Of a stretch of 64,000 bases of DNA, positions 1 to 13,064 are shown piece after piece. Numbering within the stretch: position 1 is the first letter of the stretch; every line of letters starts with the position of its first letter. The position numbers and the translations under genes are program-made. Origin of the DNA: Synechococcus sp. GreenBA-s (GTDB lineage: Bacteria; Cyanobacteriota; Cyanobacteriia; PCC-6307; Cyanobiaceae). The stretch spans positions 1 through 64,000 of the forward strand of contig NZ_JAGQBX010000005.1 of assembly GCF_024345855.1 (NCBI RefSeq), in the 5' to 3' direction. A model generated the notes under the pieces. The model saw only the letters and a list, made by a program, of their open reading frames with translations. It did not search any database and had not been told where the DNA came from.

Positions 1-42
1 GGAGATGGCGCCCTCGGTGTCGGCGGGATGGGTGGTGGTCAT
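1..42 (-). CDS. N-terminal end of an unidentified gene running off the left edge
   Basis: A minus-strand ATG at 42 opens a frame that stays open to the window edge. It gives only 14 residues, beginning MTTTHPADTEG. That is too short to assign to a family. It is divergent from the gene at 159, with about 116 bp between them that contain repeated motifs, so a start here is plausible. I cannot exclude a chance frame. Confidence 0.4.
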   Translation of the reverse strand, partial: MTTTHPADTEGAIS

Positions 43-158: not shown

Positions 159-599
159 ATGGCCCCCCAGTCCGCCTCCGCCGCCGTCCCTAGCCACACC
201 GCCGCTTCTGGCCAAGCCGCCACCGCGGCAGCGTCCACAGGTTCCAGCCCGGCAGGTGCAGCAGGCCCAGACGGCTCCCGTCGCCTGGGCCTGCTGCTCG
301 GCCCCCAGGGCCAGCTCAGCGGCGACGGCCAGCTGCGGGAACTGATCCAGGAGCAGCGCGAGCGCAAGGGGGCAGAGGCCGCGATCTGGTATCTGCCGCC
401 GGCCCTGGTGCGGCAGCTGGGTCTGGGCACGGCCGAGGAGGAGGCCGTGGCCTCCGCCGATGCCGCCACACTCACCTGGCTGCAACTGCGCTTCGGTGGG
501 GCCGTCCGCCCCTGCAACCTGCGCCCGGAGGACCTGGCCCAGCAGGCTGCCGCCCTGCCGCCGGCCGCGCCCCTGGCGGGTGTGGGCCTGCGGGGTTGA
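159..599 (+). CDS. Conserved hypothetical protein, 146 aa
   Basis: I do not recognise a named family. The first 45 residues are Ala/Ser/Pro-rich and probably disordered. The remainder (about residues 50-146) looks like a compact domain with a helix rich in charged residues (LRELIQEQRERKG) and a segment ALTWLQLRFGG. There is no signal peptide or membrane segment. The ATG at 159 is the only convincing start. The gene converges on the aldehyde-oxygenase-like gene, and a strong hairpin separates the two. Codon use matches that of the real genes nearby. Confidence 0.6.
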   Translation: MAPQSASAAVPSHTAASGQAATAAASTGSSPAGAAGPDGSRRLGLLLGPQGQLSGDGQLRELIQEQRERKGAEAAIWYLPPALVRQLGLGTAEEEAVASADAATLTWLQLRFGGAVRPCNLRPEDLAQQAAALPPAAPLAGVGLRG

Positions 600-746: not shown

Positions 747-1472
747 TCAGCCCAAAGAGACGGCGGCCACCGAGCGGAACACCAGCCGGCGGGCCTCGGC
801 TCCGCTGAAGCCGATCGTCACCAGCGACTGCTCGAACAGCTCGCAGAACGCGCCCACCAGATCGGACGGATCCATGCCGATGGTGCGCATGTCCTCAGCC
901 ACGGCCTGGAGGATCTGCAGGGTCACCGGCAGGGCGCTCCGGCAGATCGCCGCCACGGCCTCGGCCACCTCGGCAAAGCGGCCCTGGAGCCACTGCTCGC
1001 CGTAGTTGAGGTGCTCGGCCTCGTCGGCGAGCACCGCCGCGGTGATCGGCTGGGCATAGGCATCAGCCACGGGCAGGTAGGCGCGGTAGGCCGCCACGGC
1101 GAAGCACTCCACGATCAGGCACTGGATCACCAGGCAGCCCGCCAGATCCCGCGAGCGATCGCACTCCTGGAACAGGGCGTGCAGGGGGGCGAACAGCTGC
1201 TTCGCCAGGGCCGCATCGGGCCGCACGCCCAGGTTGGCGCCACAGCCGATGAAGTCGCGGGCGTGACGACCCTCCATCGCCCCGAGGCGCAGGAGCTCGG
1301 CGCCGTCCTCAGGGATGGCGCGGGCCAGCAGCCGGAAATGGCGGTCGGCCAGGCCCTCACCCACAACCACCACACCGTTGATGCGGCTGTAGGCATCGCG
1401 GTAGACAGGGCTGGTGGGATCGGGGCTGGGGGCTGGGGCGCCGCTGAAGGCGACGGATTGGAGCGATGTCAT
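747..1472 (-). CDS. Aldehyde deformylating oxygenase-like ferritin-fold protein
   Basis: This 241-aa protein resembles cyanobacterial aldehyde deformylating oxygenase (ADO), which turns fatty aldehydes into alkanes plus formate. The di-iron ligand pattern is visible: Glu39, Glu67 and His70 (MEGRH), Glu122 (IVECF), Glu151 and His154 (EAEH). The conserved Cys is at 77 (IGCGANLGV), and the segments DAYSRIN and HLNYGEQWL are typical of the family. The length is close to the usual 231 aa. The ATG at 1472 overlaps the stop of the upstream desaturase by 4 bases, indicating translational coupling. Odd: the acyl-ACP reductase that normally accompanies ADO is absent here. It may be a paralogue with a different substrate, so I give no gene symbol. 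Confidence 0.85.
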   Translation of the reverse strand: MTSLQSVAFSGAPAPSPDPTSPVYRDAYSRINGVVVVGEGLADRHFRLLARAIPEDGAELLRLGAMEGRHARDFIGCGANLGVRPDAALAKQLFAPLHALFQECDRSRDLAGCLVIQCLIVECFAVAAYRAYLPVADAYAQPITAAVLADEAEHLNYGEQWLQGRFAEVAEAVAAICRSALPVTLQILQAVAEDMRTIGMDPSDLVGAFCELFEQSLVTIGFSGAEARRLVFRSVAAVSLG

Positions 1473-2452
1473 CGGGACTGGCGAGAGGGGAATGGGCGTG
1501 AGGCCTGCGGCGAGGAGGTGGTGCGTCGGGATGTCGTGGCGCGCGGGGACGTCGCGGCATGGGCCGGCATCGCAGCGTGCAGGGGCGCCGCCAGACGGAT
1601 GCGACGGGCCAGGCCCAGCCGCCGCAACAGGCGGATGTGCTGCCAGGTGAGGTCGACTTCCCACCACTGGAAGCCCATGCGGGCACTGCTGGGGTAGGCG
1701 TGGTGGTTGTTATGCCAACCCTCACCGAAGCTCAGCAGGGCCACCCACCAGTTGTTGCGGGAGCCGTCGCCGCTCGCGTGGCACACATAGCCCCAGCGGT
1801 GGGTGGCGGAGTTCACCAGCCAGGTCACGTGGTAGACGAGCACCAGCCGCAGCGGAATGCCCCACAGCACCAGGGCCCAGCCACCGGCGCCCGTGGCCTC
1901 GCCGAGGGCATAGAGCAGCACCCCAAGCGGCAGCTGCAGCAGCAGGAAGTTGCGGTTGAGCCAGCGGTAGTAGGGCACCCGCTGCAGGTCGGGGGTGAGC
2001 TGGCGCACGTAGCGCTTGGCGGGCACGTCGTGCAGCATCCAGGCGAAGTGGCTCCACCAGAAGCCCAGATGGCTGTTGTGGTGGTCGGCCGGATCGTCGG
2101 AATGCAGGTGGTGGTGGCGATGCAGGCCGGCCCAGTCGATCGGGCCGTGCTGGCAGCTGAGGGTGCCGCAGGTGGTGATCACCGCCTCCAGCCAGCGGGG
2201 CACCTGGAAGGAGCTGTGGGCCAGCAGCCGGTGGTAGCCGAGGGTCACCCCCACACAGGCGGTGAGCCAGTAGAGAACCAGCAGCACCCCCACCGCCATG
2301 GGGCTCCAGAAGCGCGGCAGCAGGGCCACCACCGCAAGAGCATGGATCGCCACCATGAAGGCAACGGTGCCCCAGCTGAAGCGCAGCCGCCGGGGCTCCA
2401 CCGCAATGCCCCGCCGCAGCGGCGGCAGCGGGGCCAGGGACGCTGAACTCAT
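1469..2452 (-). CDS. Acyl-lipid desaturase, DesC-like (delta-9 type)
   Basis: This is a 327-aa membrane desaturase. The three histidine boxes of the acyl-CoA/acyl-lipid desaturase family are all present: HRLLAH, HRHHH within GLHRHHHLHSD, and HNNHH within EGWHNNHHAYPSS. Hydrophobic pairs around residues 28-70 and 170-215 fit the usual four-helix topology. The product would introduce a double bond into membrane fatty acids using O2 and ferredoxin. The last ~40 residues (rich in Ala, Ser, Thr and Arg) are a low-complexity tail. It overlaps the genes on both sides by 4 bases. DesC is the closest general match, but position specificity cannot be read from sequence. The known low-oxygen operon of some cyanobacteria also contains a desaturase. 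Confidence 0.9.
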   Translation of the reverse strand: MSSASLAPLPPLRRGIAVEPRRLRFSWGTVAFMVAIHALAVVALLPRFWSPMAVGVLLVLYWLTACVGVTLGYHRLLAHSSFQVPRWLEAVITTCGTLSCQHGPIDWAGLHRHHHLHSDDPADHHNSHLGFWWSHFAWMLHDVPAKRYVRQLTPDLQRVPYYRWLNRNFLLLQLPLGVLLYALGEATGAGGWALVLWGIPLRLVLVYHVTWLVNSATHRWGYVCHASGDGSRNNWWVALLSFGEGWHNNHHAYPSSARMGFQWWEVDLTWQHIRLLRRLGLARRIRLAAPLHAAMPAHAATSPRATTSRRTTSSPQASRPFPSRQSR

Positions 2453-3516
2453 GCGGCCTCCGCGCTGGCCACCATCGGCTGGCCGAACTGGAGCAGCAGC
2501 AGGCCGGCGAAGCGCACCTGCAGCCCCAGCCTGCGCAGGACGCGGCCCAGGCCGGCGGGCTCCTCGGCGAGGGCCTTGATGGCGCGGTAGGTCTCCACCA
2601 GCCGGTCGCGAAGTTCGAAGTAGGCGCGACCCTGGAGGGCGAACACCACCGGGAAGGCCCGGCGGGCGGTGCGGTTGGTCTGGCGCATCACCTCCTCGTC
2701 GAACAGGGTGGGATCCATGCCGAGCAGCCGGTAGAAGTTGCCCCGCTCACACACCGTGAGGCTGTGGGTGAGGAACACCGACCACAGGAAGAAACGGCTC
2801 AGCAGCCGGCCGCGCAGACCTTGGCGCAGGCCGGGATTGCAGCGGATGAGCACGTTGAAGATGTCGCCGTGGCGGTTCTCGTCCTGGCACCAGGGCTCAA
2901 AGAAGTCGAACAGCGGCGCAAAGCTGTTGCCCGGATGGGCCTTGAGGTGCCGGTCGATCAGGATGTAGCGCCAGTAGCCGATCTTCTCGGAGAGGTACAC
3001 CGAATACAGCACCCAGCTCAGCGGGAACCAGGTGATCGGCCGCTTACCGCTCAGCGAGGGCAGGTCGATCTCGATGCCCTCGGCCACCAGGGCCCGGTTG
3101 AGAAAGCCGGCGTGGCGGGCCTCGTCGCGGGCCATCAGCTGGAACAGGCGGCCCAGCTCGGGGCGGCTGGCCTTGAACAGCCGCCGCGAGAGCTCCTTGA
3201 ACAGCAGGAATCCGGAAAACTCCGACACGCAGGAGCGCACCAGGTAGCTCTCATAGGCCTCCTTCTCGTCAGGGGAGAGGTCCTTGAGGCGGTTGAGGGG
3301 AGCCTTGCGATCGAAGTGGTCGCGGTTGTAGTCGGTCTCCATCTCGCCGAGCATGGCGTCGAAGGCCTGGCGCTGGCCCTCCAGGTCCATGGTCGCGGCC
3401 TTGTCGATCTCAGTGGTGTAAAAGCGCGGTGTGAGCAGGTCTTCCCGCAGGTGGGGGGCCGGGCCGGCGGCGGGTGAGAGGGCGGTGCCCGGGGCAGCAG
3501 GAACAGTGGCGGTCAT
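2449..3516 (-). CDS. acsF: Mg-protoporphyrin IX monomethyl ester oxidative cyclase (AcsF/ChlA type)
   Basis: This 355-aa enzyme forms the fifth ring of chlorophyll using O2. Family landmarks are LLTPRFYTT near residue 28, EFSGFLLFKEL (Glu99, Glu108), DEARHAGFLNRA (Glu132, His135), LSEKIGYWRY, and WCQDENRHGD (Glu213, His216). The length agrees with the family. The ATG at 3516 gives a normal N-terminus; a longer frame upstream is probably not translated. It is the second gene of the di-iron operon and overlaps the desaturase start by 4 bases (ATGA). Cyanobacteria often carry two copies, one induced at low oxygen. The neighbours suggest this is that second form (AcsFII/ChlAII), which is inference. 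Confidence 0.93.
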   Translation of the reverse strand: MTATVPAAPGTALSPAAGPAPHLREDLLTPRFYTTEIDKAATMDLEGQRQAFDAMLGEMETDYNRDHFDRKAPLNRLKDLSPDEKEAYESYLVRSCVSEFSGFLLFKELSRRLFKASRPELGRLFQLMARDEARHAGFLNRALVAEGIEIDLPSLSGKRPITWFPLSWVLYSVYLSEKIGYWRYILIDRHLKAHPGNSFAPLFDFFEPWCQDENRHGDIFNVLIRCNPGLRQGLRGRLLSRFFLWSVFLTHSLTVCERGNFYRLLGMDPTLFDEEVMRQTNRTARRAFPVVFALQGRAYFELRDRLVETYRAIKALAEEPAGLGRVLRRLGLQVRFAGLLLLQFGQPMVASAEAA

Positions 3517-3524
3517 GGCGGCGA

Positions 3525-4052
3525 TCAGGCGGGGGTGACGGCAGAGCTGGCCGCCGTCGCGGAAGCAGCGGCGGCGGTGGCCAGGGCGTAGGCGCTGGCA
3601 TCGGGGCCGACCCGGTGCCGGTCGAACCAGGTCTGGATGGCAAGCAGCCAGTCGAGGCGGGCACAGCGGTCCGGGCCGGCCTGGCCATAGCCCTCGAAGG
3701 CCGCGCGGGCGGCATCGCGGTGGCCGGCACGGTGCCCCGGGCAGAGGCAGCCGCTGGCCTCGAGCCAGCGCTCCTCGAGGCGCAGGTGCAGGCGCAGCTG
3801 CCAGAGCAGGCGGCGGCAGCAGAGGTCCAGGGCCAGCTGGGCGGCCGGGGCCCCACCCGGCCCGGCGGCCATCAGGGGCTGGCTGTACAGCTCCAGCAGC
3901 TCGGCCAGCAGGGCTTCCAGCCGGTCGTGCTGGCGCTCCAGCAGCGGCAGCTGCTCGGCCCACTGCCGCGGCCAGCGGAAGCCGGAGGGCCGATCAAGGG
4001 AGCGGGATGGAGATGGAGGCGACGGCGGCGCCAGGACGGAAACCACGGGCAT
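3525..4052 (-). CDS. Bacteriohemerythrin-like O2-binding protein
   Basis: This 175-aa protein shows the full hemerythrin ligand set: His42 (RQHDRLE), HxxxE at 89-93 (HLRLE), HxxxH at 107-111 (HRAGH) and HxxxxD at 146-151 (HRVGPD). The fold should be a four-helix bundle binding a di-iron centre that reversibly binds O2. Residues 1-30 and 155-175 are low-complexity and probably flexible. There is no membrane segment or fused signalling domain, so it is likely a soluble O2 store, carrier or sensor. It is the first gene of the operon and ends 8 bases before the acsF start. The ATG at 4052 is chosen because the residues upstream look like non-coding sequence. Supplying O2 or iron to the downstream oxygenases is inference. 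Confidence 0.82.
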   Translation of the reverse strand: MPVVSVLAPPSPPSPSRSLDRPSGFRWPRQWAEQLPLLERQHDRLEALLAELLELYSQPLMAAGPGGAPAAQLALDLCCRRLLWQLRLHLRLEERWLEASGCLCPGHRAGHRDAARAAFEGYGQAGPDRCARLDWLLAIQTWFDRHRVGPDASAYALATAAAASATAASSAVTPA

Positions 4053-4100
4053 CGCGGCGGACGGGAACGGACACGCCCCACACCCTACCAGCAAAACAAC

Positions 4101-4124
4101 GTCATCGTGATACTGGGTCACTGG
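4101..4124 (-). promoter_or_regulatory. Putative operator of the di-iron operon, shared with psbA'
   Basis: Read on the minus strand, this site is CCAGTGACCCA followed directly by GTATCACGATGAC. It lies 49-72 bases upstream of the hemerythrin start codon. The DNA upstream of the truncated psbA (6072-6097) carries nearly the same string in the same orientation to its gene: CCA, TGACyCA, GTATC and GATGAC all match, with two small gaps. A shared binding site for one regulator is the simplest reading. The divergent ArsR protein is one candidate. Confidence 0.45.
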
Positions 4125-4282: not shown

Positions 4283-4588
4283 ATGGAAGCCCTGGCCGAG
4301 TACTTCAAGGTGTTCTCCGAGCCCAACCGCCTGGCGGTGCTCGAAGCCCTGCGCGGCGGCCCGCTCAACGTGACGGCCGTAGTGGACAAGACGGGCCTCA
4401 GCCAGGCCCTGGTGTCCAAGCACCTCAAGCTGCTCACCATCGCCGGTGTGGTGCAGCGCCGGCCCGAGGGCTCGCTCGTGTTCTACGAGGTGATCGACAA
4501 GTCGGTGTTCAAGCTGATCGGCCAGGCCGAGAAGCTGCTGCTGGCCGCCCGGCGCCAGCAGCTCGACGCCCTGGCCGCCATCCTTTGA
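4283..4588 (+). CDS. ArsR-family winged-helix repressor lacking cysteines
   Basis: This 101-aa protein has the ArsR/SmtB helix-turn-helix: FKVFSEPNRLAVLEAL at the N-terminus, then the recognition region TGLSQALVSKHLKLL and the wing RRPEGSLVFYEV. It contains no cysteine and only one histidine, so the usual metal or thiol sensing sites of ArsR proteins are missing and the signal is unknown. It is divergent from the di-iron operon and shares its 230-bp intergenic region, making it the likely regulator. Its stop overlaps the start of the pentapeptide-repeat gene by one base (TGATG), so the two are co-transcribed. Confidence 0.88.
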   Translation: MEALAEYFKVFSEPNRLAVLEALRGGPLNVTAVVDKTGLSQALVSKHLKLLTIAGVVQRRPEGSLVFYEVIDKSVFKLIGQAEKLLLAARRQQLDALAAIL

Positions 4589-5262
4589 TGGCCGCCGCCG
4601 GCATGGCCCCCTCCGGATCGCTGCCGCAGTCGCTGGAGGAGCTGCGCTCCGCCCTCGCCGCCGGCCATCGCTCCTTCCCGGGCCTGCGCCTGCGGGACCT
4701 CGATGGCGTGGATCTCGATCTCGCCGGCTGTGATCTGCAGGACAGCTGCTTCAAGGAGGCCCGCTTCGGTCGGGCCAACCTGAGCGGCGCCAACCTGGAG
4801 CGGTGCAGCTTCCAGCAGGCGCTGCTCTGGGGAGCCGATCTCTCCAGTGCCCAGGCCGGCCACTCGCGATGGCATGAGGCCGATCTCTCCGGGTCGCGAC
4901 TGCAGAGGGCGGATTTCTCCGGCGCCCTGCTGCACCGCGCCTGCCTGCGCGGTGTGGTGGCCGCCGGCAGCCGCTGGGTGGAGGCCCGCCTGGTGGAGGC
5001 CGACTTCCGCAGCGGCCTCGATCAGCTCACCGACCTGGGCGGCGCTGACTTCCGGGGTGCCGACCTGAGCTTTGCCCTGCTCCAGGGTGCCCAGCTGCAT
5101 GGGGCCGACCTGCGCCACACCTGCCTCTACGGCACGGATCTGCGCAATGCCGACCTCCAGGAGGCCGACCTGCGGGGCTGCGACCTGCGCGACTGCGTCC
5201 TGGATGGCTGTCAGCTGGAGGGAGCGCAGCTGGAGGGAGCTCAGCGCCGGCGCTGCAGTTGA
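4588..5262 (+). CDS. Pentapeptide-repeat protein
   Basis: This 224-aa protein consists largely of A(D/N)Lxx-type repeats, for example ANLSG ANLER, ADLSG, ADFRG ADLSF and ADLRN ADLQE ADLRG. They should fold into a right-handed quadrilateral beta-helix. A short N-terminal part (about 1-45) is not repetitive. There is no membrane segment or signal peptide. It overlaps the ArsR stop by one base and so is in the same transcript. Cyanobacteria have many such proteins, mostly of unknown function. Confidence 0.85.
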   Translation: MAAAGMAPSGSLPQSLEELRSALAAGHRSFPGLRLRDLDGVDLDLAGCDLQDSCFKEARFGRANLSGANLERCSFQQALLWGADLSSAQAGHSRWHEADLSGSRLQRADFSGALLHRACLRGVVAAGSRWVEARLVEADFRSGLDQLTDLGGADFRGADLSFALLQGAQLHGADLRHTCLYGTDLRNADLQEADLRGCDLRDCVLDGCQLEGAQLEGAQRRRCS

Positions 5263-6192: not shown

Positions 6193-6525
6193 ATGACGAC
6201 AACCACCCTCGCCCCAGCCCAGGGCCATCGCTGGGGGGCCTTCAAGGACTGGATCACCAGCACCAACAACCGCCTGTACATCGGCTGGTTCGGCGTGCTG
6301 ATGATCCCGACCCTCCTGACGGCAGCCAGCTGCTTCATCCTCGCCTTCATCGCCGCACCGCCCGTTGACATCGACGGCATCCGCGAGCCGATCAGCGGCA
6401 GCCTGCTCTACGGCAACAACATCATCACGGCCGCTGTGGTGCCCAGCTCCAACGCCATCGGCCTGCACTTCTATCCCATCTGGGGGGCCAGCAGCCTCGA
6501 TGAGTGGCTCTACAACGGCGGCCCA
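6193..6525 (+). pseudogene. psbA: Truncated psbA encoding the N-terminal third of a low-oxygen-type D1'
   Basis: Residues 1-111 are clearly photosystem II D1: [53 protein letters not shown] and [11 protein letters not shown]. Homology stops abruptly after NGGP at 6525, where YQLVVFHF would normally follow. The frame then runs on with unrelated residues to a stop at 6738, antisense to the methyltransferase. The water-oxidation and quinone-site regions are missing, so it cannot be functional D1. Residues 79-80 are Thr-Ala where standard D1 has Ser-Gly; Ala80 is one of the substitutions that mark the microaerobic D1' form. Gly replaces Glu in the usual PIWEAAS (PIWGASS). A deletion or an assembly join could explain the break. 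Confidence 0.85.
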
Positions 6526-6554
6526 GGACAAGCCCCAGATCTACAGGCGTTGCT

Positions 6555-7271
6555 TCAGGGCGCTGAACATGGTGCGTCCTCCAGCTGGTGCGGGGATGGG
6601 GACTGGAGCGACTTGCGCCACAGCCCCAGCCATTCATCGCTGCGCTGGGCCACCGATCCCTGGGCCGGCTCCCACAGCTCGGGCACCAGGCCGGTCTGGC
6701 GCCATTGGCGGGCCAGCTCCTCGGGGTCGCTGCCGTAGGGGGGACCCCCTTCGCGGCTGTGGCACAGAAACAGCCCCAGCAGCCAGCCACCGGGCTTCAG
6801 CAGCCGCAGCACCGTGGCCCGATAGGCCGCGCGTTGCCGGGGATCAATGGCGCAGAAGCAGGTGTGCTCCACCACGCCGTCCAGGCTCCCCTTCCCCAGG
6901 CCAGCAGCCGCCAGGGCCGCCGCGTCGAACAGGTCGGCCTGCAGCCAGCGCAGCTGCGGGCGATCAGGGCCATACCACCGGCGCGCCTCCCGGACGGCCT
7001 CGCCGCTGAAATCCAGCCCCACCACGGAGTAGCCCAGCTCCGCCAGCAGCGCGGCCTCATGCCCGCGGCCGCACCCGGGCACGAGCACCTTCCCCTCCCG
7101 CTGGGGCGCCAGGGGATGCCGACGCAGAAACATCGCCAGGGGCGGAGCGGGCTGGCCGAGCTCCCAGCCATCGCTGCCGTCGCGATAGCGCTGGTCCCAG
7201 CGTGCGGCCTCACTCTCCGAGGCCTGGCGAACGCCGGGGACGGGGGACGAAGCGCTGGAGGACTGGCCCAT
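6555..7271 (-). CDS. SAM-dependent methyltransferase, thiopurine methyltransferase family
   Basis: This 238-aa enzyme begins with the [21 protein letters not shown] segment typical of TPMT-like methyltransferases, followed by the SAM-binding motif I ([16 protein letters not shown]), the acidic residue VVGLDFSG, and [14 protein letters not shown]. The family methylates thiols, halides or small metabolites. The ATG at 7271 is taken because the longer frame upstream has no conserved residues. It sits between two truncated genes, psbA' and the DsbD-like fragment. The substrate cannot be inferred; cyanobacterial homologues are usually just annotated as methyltransferases. Confidence 0.85.
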
Positions 7272-7683: not shown

Positions 7684-8022
7684 CTAAGCCGCCGAGAGCT
7701 GCTGCAGCTGGGCCTGGAGGCGCTGGCGCAGCCGGTTCTGCACCAGGGCGCAGAGGTCATCCACAAGGGCATTGTCGGCACTCCAGATCGTGCGCACGCC
7801 ATCGCGCTCGCAGCTCACCAGGCCGGCGCGCTGCAGCTGGCCCAGCTGGCGGCTGATGTGCGACTGGGAAAAGCCGGTGGCCGCGATCAGGCTGGCCACA
7901 TCCATCGGGCCCTGCTTGAGCTGGCAGAGCAGCTGCAGACGGGCGGGCTCACTCAGGAGCCGGAAGAACTGGCTGTACTCCTCCAGCAGCTGGGGGCTGG
8001 GCATGGAGCCGGCGGCGCCCAT
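7684..8022 (-). CDS. ArsR-family repressor, probable persulfide-responsive (BigR/SqrR-like role)
   Basis: This 112-aa winged-helix protein has LLSEPARLQLLCQLKQGPMDVASLIAATGFSQSHISRQL-type ArsR architecture. It has three cysteines: in LLCQL, VSCERDG and DLCALV. It is divergent from persulfide dioxygenase, rhodanese and TauE genes, the same partners controlled by BigR/SqrR repressors that sense persulfides through a Cys pair. The exact cysteine spacing does not let me confirm the same sensor site. ATG starts at 8022 and 8004 are both possible. Confidence 0.85.
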   Translation of the reverse strand: MGAAGSMPSPQLLEEYSQFFRLLSEPARLQLLCQLKQGPMDVASLIAATGFSQSHISRQLGQLQRAGLVSCERDGVRTIWSADNALVDDLCALVQNRLRQRLQAQLQQLSAA

Positions 8023-8046
8023 GACGACTGCGGTATGACGATAGAC

Positions 8047-8197
8047 GCATTATGCACCCCTTGGCCGAGGGCCGACGCCTGCCGCCCGCCCCGCTGCGGA
8101 CCCAGACCCTGAGGCGGCCCTCCCGTCGAGGCCCCGCTGATCGAGCCGGAGGGCCGACCAACACCGCAGGCTTGCCAAGCATGCGTTATGCGCATAA
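8047..8197. promoter_or_regulatory. Paired operator-like sites in the divergent sulfur-cluster promoter
   Basis: The 202-bp gap between the ArsR gene and the dioxygenase gene holds GCATTATGC (8047-8055) next to the repressor start. Next to the dioxygenase it holds GCGTTATGC (8183-8191), which is part of a perfect 12-base palindrome TTATGCGCATAA (8186-8197). The two sites match at 8 of 9 bases, as expected for operators bound by one dimeric repressor on each side of a divergent promoter. Confidence 0.5.
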
Positions 8198-8224
8198 GCT
8201 CATAAGAGCTCTCGGGTTCCGGCC

Positions 8225-9361
8225 TTGGCTCCTTCTCCTGCAACTCCCCTGCTGCAGCAGGCCGCCGGCGGCGGTCCCCTGCTGCTGCGCCAGCTGTTCG
8301 ATGCCGCCACCGGCACCTTCACCTACCTGCTGGCCGATGTGACCAGCGGCGAGGGGGTGCTGATCGATCCGGTATTCGAGCAACACGCCCGCGATCTGGC
8401 CCTGGTCCAGGAACTGGGGATCGAGCTGATGGCCTCGATCGACACCCACGCCCACGCCGACCACGTGACCGGCAGCTGGCTGATGCACGAGGCCACCGGC
8501 TGCGCCATCGGCCTGGCCGCCGCCGCCCGCGCCGAACACGTGACCCTGCCGCTGCACCACGGCGACCGGGTGCGCTTCGGCGTCCGCTCGCTGGAGGTGC
8601 GCAGCACCCCCGGCCACACCGATGGCTGTGTCAGCTATGTGCTCGACGACCAGTCGATGGCCTTCACGGGCGATGCCCTGCTGGTACGCGGTTGCGGCCG
8701 CTGCGACTTCCAGCAGGGCAACGCCCACACCCTCTGGCGCTCGATCACCGAGCAGCTGTTCAGCCTGCCCGACAGCTGCCTGCTCTACCCCGGCCACGAC
8801 TACACCGGCCGCACGGTCACCTCGGTGGCCGAGGAGAAGGCCTTCAACGCCCGCCTGGGCGGCGCCGCCACCGAGCGCGACTTCGTGGGCCACATGGAGT
8901 CGATGAAACTGCCGCACCCCAACAGGATTGCGGAGGCCCTGCCGGGCAACCTGCGCTCCGGCAAGCCGCGCGAGGCCTCCCCCGCAGCGGCCGCCGGCTG
9001 GGCACCGCTGCAGCGCAGCTACGCCGGTCTGCCGGAGCTGCCGCCCGCCTGGGTGGCGGACCACCGCAGCGCCCTCACCATCCTCGATGTGCGCTCCCGC
9101 GAGGAGGCCGAGGGCCCCGACGGGCGCATCGGCGGCAGCCTGCTGATCCCCCTGCCGGAGCTGGAGGACCACCTCGGCGACATCCCCGTCGATCGGCCCG
9201 TGGTGGTGGTGTGCCATTCCGGCAGCCGCTCGGCCCTCGCCACCCAGCAGCTGCTCAAGGCCGGCCTGTCCCAGGTGGCCAACCTGCGCGGCGGCCTGGC
9301 CGGCTGGCAGGCCAAGGGCTACCCGATCGCGCACGCCACCGCTGAATCCCCCTCCCCGTAA
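8225..9361 (+). CDS. Persulfide dioxygenase (ETHE1-like) fused to rhodanese
   Basis: This 378-aa protein has two domains. Residues ~20-235 are a metallo-beta-lactamase fold with THAHADHVTG (HxHxDH), the STPGHTDGCVSYVL metal ligand and LYPGHDYTG; this type oxidises glutathione persulfide to sulfite with O2 and iron. Residues ~270-370 are a rhodanese with the active cysteine in VVCHSGSRS and the ILDVRSREE entry motif. Fusion of the two is known for sulfide detoxification enzymes. No ATG precedes the conserved part, so a TTG at 8225 is the best start. It leads the operon opposite the ArsR gene. Confidence 0.92.
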   Translation: MAPSPATPLLQQAAGGGPLLLRQLFDAATGTFTYLLADVTSGEGVLIDPVFEQHARDLALVQELGIELMASIDTHAHADHVTGSWLMHEATGCAIGLAAAARAEHVTLPLHHGDRVRFGVRSLEVRSTPGHTDGCVSYVLDDQSMAFTGDALLVRGCGRCDFQQGNAHTLWRSITEQLFSLPDSCLLYPGHDYTGRTVTSVAEEKAFNARLGGAATERDFVGHMESMKLPHPNRIAEALPGNLRSGKPREASPAAAAGWAPLQRSYAGLPELPPAWVADHRSALTILDVRSREEAEGPDGRIGGSLLIPLPELEDHLGDIPVDRPVVVVCHSGSRSALATQQLLKAGLSQVANLRGGLAGWQAKGYPIAHATAESPSP

Positions 9362-9391
9362 ACCAGCCCACCCCTCTCCACCCGCAGACCC

Positions 9392-9946
9392 ATGAGCAGC
9401 CTCCACAGCCCGATCCGCCCGTCCTCCGTCACGACGGGACGGGTCAGCGCCCACGCCCTGGCCGATCAGCTGACCAGCCAGGCCGTCACCGTGATCGACG
9501 TGCGCGAGCCGATGGAATACGCCGGCGGCCACATCGCCGGCAGCCTGAATGTGCCCCTCTCCCGCCTCACCCAGGCCGACCTGCCCCAGGGGCCCCTGGT
9601 GCTGGTGTGCCAGAGCGGCAACCGCAGCCAGCAGGGCCTGCGGGAGCTGCTGCAGCGTGGCCACCGCCATCTCCTCAGCGACCTGGAGGGCGGCATCCCC
9701 GCCTGGCAGCAGGCCGGCCTGCCGATGCGCAAGCTCAAGAACGCGCCGCTGCCGCTGATGCGCCAGGTGCAGATCGCCGCCGGCGCGCTGGTGCTGCTGG
9801 GGCTGATCCTCAGCAACACCGTGGCCCCGGCCTGGATTCTGCTCACCTGGTTTGTGGGCGGGGGCCTGGTATTCGCCGGCGTCAGCGGCTTCTGCGGCAT
9901 GGCCCGCCTGCTCGCCGTGATGCCCTGGAACAGGGTGAGCCTCTGA
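9392..9946 (+). CDS. Membrane-anchored rhodanese (YgaP-like)
   Basis: This 184-aa protein has an N-terminal rhodanese (VIDVREPMEYAGGHIAGSLNVPL, active Cys in LVCQSGNRS, then DLEGGIPAWQQAG). Two C-terminal membrane helices (~residues 127-170) follow, of the DUF2892 type that ends YgaP-like sulfurtransferases. It would move sulfane sulfur at the membrane. It starts 30 bases after the dioxygenase stop, and its TGA overlaps the ATG of the TauE gene by one base. Confidence 0.9.
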   Translation: MSSLHSPIRPSSVTTGRVSAHALADQLTSQAVTVIDVREPMEYAGGHIAGSLNVPLSRLTQADLPQGPLVLVCQSGNRSQQGLRELLQRGHRHLLSDLEGGIPAWQQAGLPMRKLKNAPLPLMRQVQIAAGALVLLGLILSNTVAPAWILLTWFVGGGLVFAGVSGFCGMARLLAVMPWNRVSL

Positions 9947-10815
9947 TGCTGATGGGCCTCTCGCTCGGCAGCGTGCTGCTGCTCGGCACCGGCGGCGGCC
10001 TGATCGGCTTTCTGCTCTCGGTGCTCGGAGCCGGCGGCTCGATCCTGCTGCTGCCGTTGCTGGTGAGCGGCGCGGGCCTGCCCACCCGGGAGGCCGTTCC
10101 CCTCTCGCTGCTGGTGGTGATGCTGCTGGCCCTGGCCAACCTGGGGCCCACCATCCGTCGCGGTCAGTTCGCCCCACGGCCGGCCCTGATCCTGGGGATT
10201 CCGGCGCTGGCCGGCAGCTGGATCGGCGGCAGCTGGGTGAAGGCCGGCCACATCCCCGAGCCGGTGCAGCTGGCGGTGTTCGCCGTGGCCGCTCTGGTGG
10301 CCTCCTGGCTGCTCAACCGCCACCCGCCAGGCCGGGCCGGTGGCGAGACGCCGGCGGAGCAGCCCGTGCTGCTGGGCCTGCAGGGGGTGCTGGTGGGCCT
10401 GCTCACCGGCATCGCCGGGGTGGGCGGCGGTTTCGCGATCGTGCCGGCCCTGGTGCTGCTGGCCGACTTGCCGATGGCCCTGGCCAGTGGCACCAGCCTG
10501 CTGCTGCTTGCGGTGAATGCCCTGGTGGCCCTCGCTGCCCAGGGCCACTGGCCCGCCGCCGGCCTGCCGCTGCTGCTGCCCCTGCTGGGCGGCGGCGCCA
10601 TCGGGGCCGTGCTGGGCCAGCACCTGGCCCCGCACCTGAGCGATCGATCCCTGCGCCAGGGCTTCTCGCTGTTGCTGATCGGCTCGGCGCTGCTCACAGG
10701 CGGCGAGGCCTGGCGCAGGCATCAACAGCGGGAAACCAGACCCCAGGCCGCCACAAGCGGCCGAACGCTTCCCCCTGCGTCCAGGACCAACCCTCGCGCC
10801 AACAGCCACCCATGA
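9946..10815 (+). CDS. TauE/SafE-family sulfite/anion exporter
   Basis: This 289-aa protein has about eight membrane helices in two homologous halves. The glycine-rich repeats are GFLLSVLGAGGSILLLPLL in the first half and GLLTGIAGVGGGFAIVPALV in the second. The family exports sulfite, sulfoacetate or related anions; after the upstream persulfide dioxygenase the natural cargo is sulfite. The ATG at 9946 overlaps the rhodanese stop. The last 30 residues are an Arg/Thr/Pro-rich cytosolic tail. It overlaps the following small ORF by 4 bases. Confidence 0.88.
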   Translation: MLMGLSLGSVLLLGTGGGLIGFLLSVLGAGGSILLLPLLVSGAGLPTREAVPLSLLVVMLLALANLGPTIRRGQFAPRPALILGIPALAGSWIGGSWVKAGHIPEPVQLAVFAVAALVASWLLNRHPPGRAGGETPAEQPVLLGLQGVLVGLLTGIAGVGGGFAIVPALVLLADLPMALASGTSLLLLAVNALVALAAQGHWPAAGLPLLLPLLGGGAIGAVLGQHLAPHLSDRSLRQGFSLLLIGSALLTGGEAWRRHQQRETRPQAATSGRTLPPASRTNPRANSHP

Positions 10816-11000
10816 GGACCCGCAGCTTCCGCATCCGCCTCGATGGGAACGCCAGCCTCGAGAAACGCCAGCTCGCCGATGCCGAGGCGATCGCCGACCT
10901 GCAGGAGCGGATGAAGCTCTGCCCGATCGCGCGCTACGTGCCCGAGGACGTGAGCCAACCCGTGGAGCAGCTGCAGCACCGGCACCGGCACCGGCACTAA
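10812..11000 (+). CDS. Small His-tailed protein, possibly an OsmC C-terminal remnant
   Basis: This 62-aa protein has its ATG overlapping the TauE stop (ATGA), so it belongs to the operon. The middle (RIRLDGNASLEKRQLADAEA, then LCPIARYV) has a faint resemblance to the C-terminal part of OsmC-like peroxiredoxins, including a single Cys-Pro. OsmC genes often accompany persulfide dioxygenases. It ends in alternating His-Arg (HRHRHRH). It is too short to be a full OsmC domain. The family link is weak; the operon position is the stronger evidence that it is real. Confidence 0.45.
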   Translation: MRTRSFRIRLDGNASLEKRQLADAEAIADLQERMKLCPIARYVPEDVSQPVEQLQHRHRHRH

Positions 11001-11215
11001 GTCCCAACGCACAACAGTGAAGACCAGTGCGCCATCGCCGTGTCTGGACGGCTGGGCTTCACGGTCCCAGCCCGGCCCTGAGGGCCCCTGGGCGGGCTGC
11101 CTCCAAGGCTTCAGATGGAGTTTGTTTCGTCGACTGGCCTAGACGACAAGCATCACGCCCTTGGCCTGCAGGATCCGCAGCCATCCCGCCTGAAGGTCCC
11201 CTCGCCCTCCCGCCC

Positions 11216-11620
11216 ATGAACCCGATCCTGATCACCGATACGGGCAAAGCCTTCGAAGAGACCTGTACTGACCTTCAGAAGGCTGTTGTTGCCCATGGTT
11301 TCGGGGTGTTGGCCATCCACGATCTGGGGGCCACGCTGCGGAACAAGGGCATCAGCTTCGCCGAGAACTGCCGGGTCTTTGAAGTGTGCAACCCCCAGCA
11401 AGCTGCCCAGGTGCTGGCGGCAGACATGGCGCTGACCGTGGCCTTGCCATGCCGGATCTCCGTCTACACCGAAGCCGGCCACACCCGCCTGGCCATGATC
11501 CGGCCTGCGGAGATGCTCCAGAACCTCTCCAGCGATCCGGAGCTGATGGACGTGGCCAAGCAAGTGGAAGTCGCCACCACGGCCATGATCCAGGAGGCGG
11601 CCACTCCAATCCCGGACTGA
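11216..11620 (+). CDS. DUF302-family protein
   Basis: This 134-aa protein matches the DUF302 fold: FEETCTDLQKAVVAHGFGVLAIHDLGATL at the N-terminus, FEVCNPQQAAQVLAAD in the middle, and LPCRISVYTEAGHTRLAMIRP near residue 82. The family function is uncertain; members often lie with sulfur, metal or heme genes, as here. A 215-bp gap separates it from the TauE operon, so it may have its own promoter. There is no signal peptide. Glutathione reductase follows 64 bases downstream. Confidence 0.82.
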   Translation: MNPILITDTGKAFEETCTDLQKAVVAHGFGVLAIHDLGATLRNKGISFAENCRVFEVCNPQQAAQVLAADMALTVALPCRISVYTEAGHTRLAMIRPAEMLQNLSSDPELMDVAKQVEVATTAMIQEAATPIPD

Positions 11621-11684
11621 GCGAGTACTGCTGGACACTGGTGGTGAGATCCCGTTCGGGGCCCTCCCCTCACCGCACTGACCC

Positions 11685-13064
11685 ATGCAGGACCGTCCCA
11701 TGCAGGACCACTTCGATCTGATCGTGCTCGGGGCCGGCTCCGGCGGTCTGGCCGCCGCCAAGCGCGCCGCCAGCTACGGCGCCCGCGTCGCGATCGTGGA
11801 GGGCGACCGGGTGGGCGGGACCTGCGTGATCCGCGGCTGCGTGCCCAAGAAACTGCTGGTGTACGGCTCGGCCTACCGCCACCTGCTCGCCGATGCCGCC
11901 AGCTACGGCTGGGAGCTGGGCGACGTGCGCCTCGAGCCCTCCCGCCTGCTCGCCAACGTGCGTGCCGAGGTGGATCGACTCAACAGCCTGCACATCGGCT
12001 TCCTGGAGAAGGCCAGCGTGGAACTGGTGCGGGGCTGGGGCCGCTTCAGCAGCGCCAACGGCGTGGTGGTGACCGCCGCCGATGGCAGTGAGCGGCAGCT
12101 GGAGGCCGAGCGGATCCTGATCGCCGTGGGCGGCCGTCCCAGCCGGCCCGAGATCCCGGGCGCCGAGCTCGGCTGGGTGAGCGACGACCTGTTCGAGCTG
12201 GAGTCGCTTCCCGAGGCGGTGGTGGTGGTGGGCGCCGGCTTTATCGCCTGCGAGTTCGCCTGCATCCTCAACGGACTGGGCGTGCAGGTGACCCAGCTGG
12301 TGCGCGGCGACCACCTGCTGCGCGGCTTCGACCGCGAAGCCAGCGAGGCGGTGCGGGTCGCCATGGAGGCCAAGGGCATCGCGATCCGCCTGGCCCACTC
12401 GCCCTCCGCGATCACCGGCCAGTGCGCCCCCGGAGAACTCACGGTCACCACCCAGAGCGGCGAGGCGATCGCCTGCGGCGGCGTGCTGCTGGCCACCGGC
12501 CGCCACCCCTTCCTGCAGGGGCTCAACCTGGAGGCCGCCGGCGTGGCGGTGGAGGGACCACGCATTCCGGTGGATGCCGATCAGCGCACCAACGTGCCGG
12601 GAATCTATGCGGTGGGCGATGTGACCGACCGGATCAACCTCACGCCAGTGGCGGTGGATGAGGGCCGCGCCTTTGCCGACACGGTGTACGGCCACAGGCC
12701 CCGCCAGGTGGACCACAACCTGGTGGCCAGCGCCGTGTTCTCCCAGCCGGAGCTGGCGAGCGTGGGGCTCACCGAGGCGCAGGCAATCGCCGGCTGCGGC
12801 GTGGAGGGCATCCGGGTGCACCGGGCCCGGTTCCGGCCCATGAGCCAGGCCCTGCCGGCACGGGATCCCAAGGTGCTACTGAAGCTGATCGTGGACGCCG
12901 CCAGCAACCGGGTGCTGGGGGCCCACATGGTGGGCGAGCACGCCGCCGAGATCATCCAGATGGCCGCCATCGCCATCGGCATGGGCGCCACCAAGGCCGA
13001 CTTCGACCGCACCATGGCCCTGCACCCCTCGGTGGCCGAGGAGTTCGTGACCATGCCCGGCTGA
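11685..13064 (+). CDS. gor: Glutathione reductase
   Basis: This 459-aa flavoprotein reduces glutathione disulfide with NAD(P)H. It shows the FAD-binding IVLGAGSGGLAAAKRA, the redox-active disulfide in GGTCVIRGCVPKK, the NAD(P)-binding VVVGAGFIACEFA, the second FAD motif YAVGDVTDRINLTPVA, and the C-terminal dimer-interface motif MALHPSVAEEFVTM with its catalytic His. The start lies in a short tandem duplication (ATGCAGGACC at 11685 and 11700), so translation could begin at either ATG. The location after the persulfide genes fits, since glutathione persulfide is their substrate. Confidence 0.95.
   Translation: MQDRPMQDHFDLIVLGAGSGGLAAAKRAASYGARVAIVEGDRVGGTCVIRGCVPKKLLVYGSAYRHLLADAASYGWELGDVRLEPSRLLANVRAEVDRLNSLHIGFLEKASVELVRGWGRFSSANGVVVTAADGSERQLEAERILIAVGGRPSRPEIPGAELGWVSDDLFELESLPEAVVVVGAGFIACEFACILNGLGVQVTQLVRGDHLLRGFDREASEAVRVAMEAKGIAIRLAHSPSAITGQCAPGELTVTTQSGEAIACGGVLLATGRHPFLQGLNLEAAGVAVEGPRIPVDADQRTNVPGIYAVGDVTDRINLTPVAVDEGRAFADTVYGHRPRQVDHNLVASAVFSQPELASVGLTEAQAIAGCGVEGIRVHRARFRPMSQALPARDPKVLLKLIVDAASNRVLGAHMVGEHAAEIIQMAAIAIGMGATKADFDRTMALHPSVAEEFVTMPG

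Follow-up and report, generated by a model that had tools for sequence, protein, structure and literature searches.

A second AcsF cyclase and its candidate Ycf54-like partner in a putative ArsR-controlled micro-oxic gene cluster of Cyanobiaceae

We analyzed a stretch of 64,000 nucleotides from Synechococcus sp. GreenBA-s, hereafter called the window, which starts at base 1 of contig C45, the contig end being the window start. Close to this edge lies a minus-strand row of four genes, encoding a hemerythrin-like protein (Hr), a second AcsF cyclase (AcsF2), a desaturase and a paralog (ADO2) of aldehyde-deformylating oxygenase (ADO). The row is accompanied by the cut start of ho2, a small and previously unannotated gene on the plus strand, two operator-like dyads and a divergent pair of genes for an ArsR-type regulator and a pentapeptide-repeat protein. 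The features are as follows.

1 to 42, minus strand: ho2 (heme oxygenase 2), first 14 codons, cut by the contig end; the peptide MTTTHPADTEGAIS matches the ho2 start of a relative (L039)
100 to 115, no strand: second operator-like dyad, in the gap between ho2 and the Ycf54-like gene, a perfect match to the pattern
159 to 599, plus strand: Ycf54-like protein, candidate dedicated AcsF2 subunit, from profile search, HHalign, AlphaFold (AF2) fold and acsF neighborhood
747 to 1472, minus strand: ADO2, from a match to PF11266 and six Fe ligands
1469 to 2452, minus strand: delta-9-type acyl-lipid desaturase paralog, DesC-like and functionally DesF-like, from Pfam FA_desaturase and three His boxes
2449 to 3516, minus strand: AcsF2, second AcsF, over the TIGR02029 and PRK13654 cutoffs, with invariant ligands, outside the AcsF-I clade
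3525 to 4052, minus strand: Hr, divergent bacteriohemerythrin-like protein, first gene of the operon, from ligands, AlphaFold fold and recurrence
4096 to 4111, no strand: operator-like 16-bp dyad AYMACG-N4-CGTKRT, in the gap between arsR and the operon, a perfect match
4283 to 4588, plus strand: ArsR/SmtB-family regulator without cysteine, divergent from the operon (NF033788, 73.4 bits; cutoff, 55)
4588 to 5262, plus strand: pentapeptide-repeat protein overlapping arsR (Pfam Pentapeptide)

The original prediction had described the row of hemerythrin, AcsF, desaturase and ADO-like genes, and its layout was confirmed, with an 8-base gap between Hr and AcsF2 and 4-base overlaps at both AcsF2/desaturase and desaturase/ADO2. 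The di-iron ligand sets it had read in Hr, AcsF and the ADO-like protein were found intact by alignment, and the desaturase does carry all three His boxes (HRLLAH, HRHHH and HNNHH). The enzymes all duplicate housekeeping O2-dependent enzymes encoded elsewhere in the same genome, the paralogs being an AcsF1 45% identical to AcsF2 (contig C10), a canonical ADO ~40% identical to ADO2 (C24) and DesC copies 61 to 67% identical to the desaturase (C4). Absent from that prediction were the Ycf54-like gene, the ArsR/pentapeptide pair, the operator-like dyad and a remnant of a D1'-type psbA described below.

The protein encoded at 159 to 599 had no match in Pfam, and three of its relatives scored only 12 to 16.8 bits against the Ycf54 family (PF10674), under the cutoff of 25. 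When a profile of ten members of its family was searched against the PDB, five Ycf54 entries formed the top five of 177,635 sequences (best E value, 2.5e-4), and HHalign gave a probability of 96.3%. With the AF2 model as the query, the top eight of 350,542 chains returned by Foldseek were all Ycf54, and the Z scores of the model were 7.5 to 8.2 to Ycf54 versus 5.6 for the next fold. Judged from profile and predicted fold, the protein is a remote Ycf54. It shares with Ycf54, an auxiliary subunit of AcsF, the fold, the core size, the E22/E26/R82-type positions (here E61, E65 and R111) and the link to AcsF; unlike Ycf54, it falls under the Pfam cutoff, is tied to AcsF2 only and occurs in genomes without canonical Ycf54.

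The distributions of the two proteins are complementary. Canonical Ycf54 was present in 270 of 334 Cyanobiaceae genomes and in 0 of the 41 that have an AcsF2-type protein as their sole AcsF (Fisher p, ~2e-36, for genomes that are not independent). In the AcsF2-only genomes that were fetched, which are of the low-light Prochlorococcus type, the Ycf54-like gene adjoins acsF in 11 out of 11 cases. This linkage, together with the complementary distribution, suggests that the Ycf54-like protein may bind AcsF2.

AcsF2 itself scored well over the cutoff of NCBIfam TIGR02029 (363.8 bits; cutoff, 192.5) and over that of PRK13654 (430 bits; cutoff, 391), and the ligands E99, E132-x2-H135, E177 and E213-x2-H216 were invariant across 70 AcsF proteins. 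In a quick, unrooted tree, AcsF2 did not group with the AcsF-I clade but stood next to the AcsF proteins that are linked to ho2/hemN in other cyanobacteria. Copies with ~68 to 95% identity occur in some 70 of the 334 Cyanobiaceae genomes, and relatives with 61 to 66% identity are the sole cyclase in the 41 genomes mentioned above. One genome (locus L046, genome G026) has two AcsF2-type cyclases, one per subtype, together with a weak Ycf54 match only.

We then considered what lies beyond the window edge, where the original prediction had seen a compact operon with a hemerythrin and an ADO-like protein standing in for heme oxygenase and HemN. The one point in favor of this idea is that nothing past the edge can be seen in the window itself. 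However, the minus strand from 42 to 1, preceded by its own operator, encodes MTTTHPADTEGAIS, which matches the N-terminal residues of the heme oxygenase encoded after ado2 in Vulcanococcus limneticus, and HO2 of the relative L039 matches Pfam PF01126. The remainder of ho2 was not found in the assembly of the same genome, and hemN was found on contig C76 (12 to 1451), starting 12 bases into the contig and 95% identical to the hemN of that relative. Since hemN sits at the edge of C76, this suggests that the missing part of ho2 falls in an assembly gap. Relatives carry an unbroken series Hr-acsF2-des-ado2-...-ho2-hemN, with ho2 and hemN downstream. As the contig ends inside ho2 and relatives have the full series, the apparent replacement is an edge effect, and the start of ho2, the position of hemN and the synteny of relatives together rule it out, barring a loss of ho2 from this genome alone, so that we give it practically no credence.

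To describe the cluster more broadly, 74 AcsF2 loci were fetched from Cyanobiaceae; the counts are lower bounds, since some contigs end early. Divergent ArsR and pentapeptide genes were present at 66 of the 74 loci, ADO2 at 52, the Ycf54-like gene at 43, Hr at 31 and the desaturase at 20, while ho2 and hemN were found within 8 kb at 57 and 54 loci, respectively. The simplest versions consist of acsF2-ho2-hemN. The four-gene order, far from being absent in every related genome, recurs widely, and since the identical order is found in many genomes, it is not due to chance. At 27 loci (L149, L120, L112 and others), a GT8-family glycosyltransferase gene lies between acsF2 and ado2, mostly in the slot of the desaturase.

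Clusters with acsFII, ho2, hemN and desF are known and are induced at low O2 (PMC4500134); the systems we compared are chlR-chlAII(acsFII)-ho2-hemN-desF of Synechococcus sp. PCC 7002 and chlAII-ho2-hemN of Synechocystis sp. PCC 6803 (PMC4500134). The kinship with such low-oxygen operons, already proposed from the window alone, was supported: AcsF-II, HO2, HemN and a DesC-type desaturase are shared, as is a regulator gene divergent from acsFII. The regulator differs, being of the ArsR/SmtB type with a pentapeptide-repeat partner here and the MarR-type ChlR in PCC 7002. In addition, Hr, ADO2, the Ycf54-like protein and, in some genomes, the GT8 glycosyltransferase are extra here, ho2-hemN has its own copy of the operator, and the desaturase is closer to DesC of its own genome than to the desaturases of the other clusters. 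Twenty AcsF-II loci of other cyanobacteria mostly had ho2 and hemN and sometimes a desaturase; none of the 20 had Hr, GT8, the Ycf54-like gene or an in-cluster ADO2, with a single ADO, 45% identical, lying 5.5 kb away. Given that ho2 begins in the window, that hemN is found at one edge of C76 and that relatives have the series intact, the locus is a real, conserved and expanded variant of the known acsFII-ho2-hemN low-oxygen cluster. Its chief novelty is the AcsF2/Ycf54-like pair and the surrounding ArsR/operator system, rather than the four-gene row. Literature searches, which covered open-licence papers, returned no description of the Hr/ADO2/ArsR version. In two cyanobacteria outside the family (L227 and L237), ArsR and pentapeptide genes were seen near AcsF-II in a different arrangement.

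At the divergent position, the regulator gene is of the ArsR/SmtB type, with no MarR-type chlR; a wider MarR search for ChlR gave matches in every genome, controls included. Cysteine is missing from the cluster ArsR in 66 of 67 aligned rows, the exception probably being a different ArsR, and in the pentapeptide protein, cysteines at four positions (C48, C119, C179 and C198) are nearly invariant among 65 homologues. Since the regulator lacks cysteine while its neighbor carries these four, one may speculate that the pentapeptide protein is a candidate redox partner of ArsR.

The 64-kb window contains exactly two perfect dyad sites, those at 4096 to 4111 and 100 to 115. With at most one mismatch, the dyad occurred in 59 of 68 arsR-operon intergenic regions, versus 0.23 in shuffles, and upstream of ho2 at 37 of 62 loci, versus 0.3 in shuffles. 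The pattern had been shaped on the arsR-operon regions and on the ho2 region of the window, and the ho2 regions of the other genomes are thus the independent test. Sites before psbA were found at eight neighboring genes with one to three mismatches, seven of the eight being within two, against a background of ~6% and with the eight not independent. Genome-wide, a degenerate form of the pattern gave 4 to 12 sites per genome versus 0 to 5 for a reversed control, and sites with ATAACG halves were, by eye, confined to the cluster; given these numbers, we claim no further member of the regulon. In the clusters of other cyanobacteria, only scattered one-mismatch sites were found. ArsR/SmtB regulators bind an inverted repeat at the promoter of their own gene, and the conserved dyad, lying where such a site is expected, is a candidate binding site of ArsR. 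A search for a sigma-70-like promoter found none.

Hr scored 19.8 bits against Pfam PF01814, under the gathering score of 25.3, and phmmer against PDB sequences gave no useful match. The ligand pattern H...HxxxE...HxxxH...HxxxxD is nonetheless present, and H42, H89, E93, H107, H111, H146 and D151 were invariant in an alignment of 32 sequences, with one H89Q as the sole exception. The AF2 model (pLDDT, 86.8) matched DcrH-Hr best (Z, 13.2), followed by hemerythrin 4xpx (Z, 12.4); the top seven Z scores were all to hemerythrins (13.2 to 12.3), with other helical bundles from 11.2 down, at ~11. Because helical bundles are an easy match, fold and ligands are to be weighed jointly, and on both counts Hr is predicted to have the hemerythrin four-helix fold. 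It shares this fold and the seven Fe ligands with bacteriohemerythrin (4xpx) and DcrH-Hr (2awc) and differs from them by its identity of only 14 to 20%, its score under the Pfam cutoff and its place in a chlorophyll/lipid operon. A role in the handling or delivery of O2 would fit these features.

The desaturase matched Pfam FA_desaturase with 66.6 bits and was 67 and 61% identical to the DesC copies of its own genome, versus ~41 to 49% to the desaturases of other cyanobacterial low-O2 clusters. These identities suggest that it was recruited independently, the branches of the desaturase tree being long.

ADO2 scored 215.8 bits against Pfam Ald_deCOase (PF11266) and 216.2 bits against the curated ADO equivalog TIGR04059 (NCBIfam), just short of the cutoff of 222.65. 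In the NpADO numbering of a review (PMC9743570), which all position numbers assume, the six Fe ligands E33, E61, H64, E116, E145 and H148 are all present in the ADO2 of the window, and no fewer than 45 of 47 ADO2 proteins have the ligand at any one of these positions. In contrast, the acids that contact AAR are retained at position 201 in 0, at 197 in 3 and at 202 in 27 of the 47, the window ADO2 having S, G and A at 197, 201 and 202; in ADO1, an acid is present at 201 in 22 and at 197 in 21 of 25. Further changes are Phe83 to Leu, Phe87 to Leu, Asn39 to His and Tyr40 to Phe, and several tunnel positions are altered. ADO2 thus shares with ADO ~40% identity, length and Fe ligands but falls into a group of its own, differing in tunnel and AAR-contact residues, and is a second copy alongside canonical ADO. 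The PDB entry 5ux2, deposited as an aldehyde decarbonylase, falls in the ADO2 clade, and a search for ADO2 in phages gave no match. A second ADO homologue had been noted, without genomic context, in Cyanobium gracile PCC 6307, CB0101 and RS9917 (PMC3903477). From its residues, ADO2 would be either an ADO for low O2 that draws its aldehyde from another source or an enzyme with a new substrate; its role is probably in aldehyde/alkane chemistry.

Beyond the regulator genes, the window holds one more feature that belongs to this locus.

6193 to 6738, plus strand: truncated psbA remnant, ~108 codons of D1 with Ala80 as in D1', followed by unrelated sequence (Photo_RC, 62.5 bits, N terminus only)

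In eight relatives, an intact psbA lies beside the cluster and encodes a full-length D1 with A80/L158/A286, a triad that we take to mark D1' and that these genes share with the D1' of Synechocystis (psbA1) and T. elongatus (psbA2). The microaerobically induced psbA2 carries Ala286 (PMC9709244). Unlike the D1' genes of Synechocystis and T. elongatus, psbA(D1') and the pigment cluster are physical neighbors in these relatives, the window itself having a remnant only.

Gene content and order, metal ligands, paralogy, recurrence, operator conservation and the kinship and complementary distribution of the Ycf54-like protein are all observed, and we consider it likely that the four genes make up one arm, the first, of a micro-oxic island controlled by ArsR and akin to the acsFII-ho2-hemN clusters. 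In air, ArsR would sit on the dyads before the Hr operon, ho2 and the neighboring D1'-type psbA, and it would release them as O2 falls. Low-O2 versions of the enzymes would then be made, AcsF2 for chlorophyll, HO2 for bilins, the DesC paralog for lipids and ADO2 probably for aldehyde/alkane chemistry, with the O2-independent HemN made alongside. Hr may bind O2, either buffering it or passing it on to the di-iron enzymes, and AcsF2 would have the Ycf54-like protein instead of Ycf54 as its partner. We also favor, with more reserve, the view that an additional class of O2-dependent cyclase exists in picocyanobacteria, consisting of AcsF2 and its own Ycf54-like subunit, in an ArsR-controlled micro-oxic island with a recruited hemerythrin, a second ADO and D1', and that low-light Prochlorococcus-type lineages keep AcsF2 alone, having lost AcsF1 and canonical Ycf54.

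Several points weigh against this interpretation. Induction of the cluster at low O2 is a prediction drawn by analogy with the known clusters. ArsR proteins usually sense metals or thiols, and the ArsR without cysteine shows no visible O2 sensor. The Ycf54-like gene is near the cluster at only 43 of the 74 loci, and Hr has no place in 43 of the 74, so that Hr is not required. The AAR-docking residues of ADO are gone from ADO2, and the join of C45 and C76 in the source genome is deduced from synteny.

Some of these points lead to other explanations. Within a low-O2 isozyme set, Hr could serve in sensing, or in scavenging iron, NO or peroxide, instead of supplying O2. We hold this account to be possible, though not one to favor: under half of the clusters have Hr, so the enzymes work without it, and bacterial hemerythrin domains also sense, DcrH, the best fold match, being a domain of a chemotaxis protein, yet in each of its 31 clusters, Hr heads a di-iron O2-using operon and carries no signaling domain. 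With similar reserve, ADO2 might have ceased to be an alkane enzyme and become a di-iron oxygenase that acts on something new, perhaps a lipid or tetrapyrrole. The near-complete loss of the acids at 201 and 197 and the four substitutions listed above fit such a change, and the cluster showed no aar gene; however, the six Fe ligands are kept, the PDB lists 5ux2 as an aldehyde decarbonylase, and since the other O2-using enzymes of the cluster have housekeeping enzymes as their isozymes, it is simpler to read ADO2 as a low-O2 ADO. It is unlikely that the cluster responds to sulfide or another anoxia-linked stress rather than to O2. A few kilobases off, the window does hold genes for a second ArsR, an ETHE1-like rhodanese fusion, TauE and rhodanese, and ArsR-family regulators are often persulfide sensors, but the cluster ArsR has no cysteine and the sulfur genes are outside the block conserved across genomes.

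If the reading of a distinct AcsF2/Ycf54-like cyclase class is true, the universality of Ycf54 in oxygenic phototrophs, where it has been called ubiquitous (PMC7319587), needs qualifying. In the Cyanobiaceae, the island would be a separate solution, distinguished by a different type of regulator and operator, by a protein of the O2-binding type in the operon, by a second ADO and by a cyclase partner of its own. Oxygen is required to make chlorophyll, bilins and unsaturated lipids, and the way in which cyanobacteria continue this synthesis when O2 is low therefore matters for life in oxygen-minimum zones and anoxic lakes. Two questions thereby become open to direct testing: whether di-iron enzymes receive O2 from hemerythrin, and how chlorophyll is made in low-light Prochlorococcus, which has no canonical Ycf54.

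Across the window, an Rfam scan matched a single tRNA and nothing else. Positions 7684 to 13064 hold the second ArsR gene and genes for the ETHE1-like beta-lactamase-rhodanese fusion, a rhodanese carrying a YgaP-like membrane part, a TauE exporter, a DUF302 protein and a disulfide reductase, a set that likely serves sulfide/persulfide detoxification.

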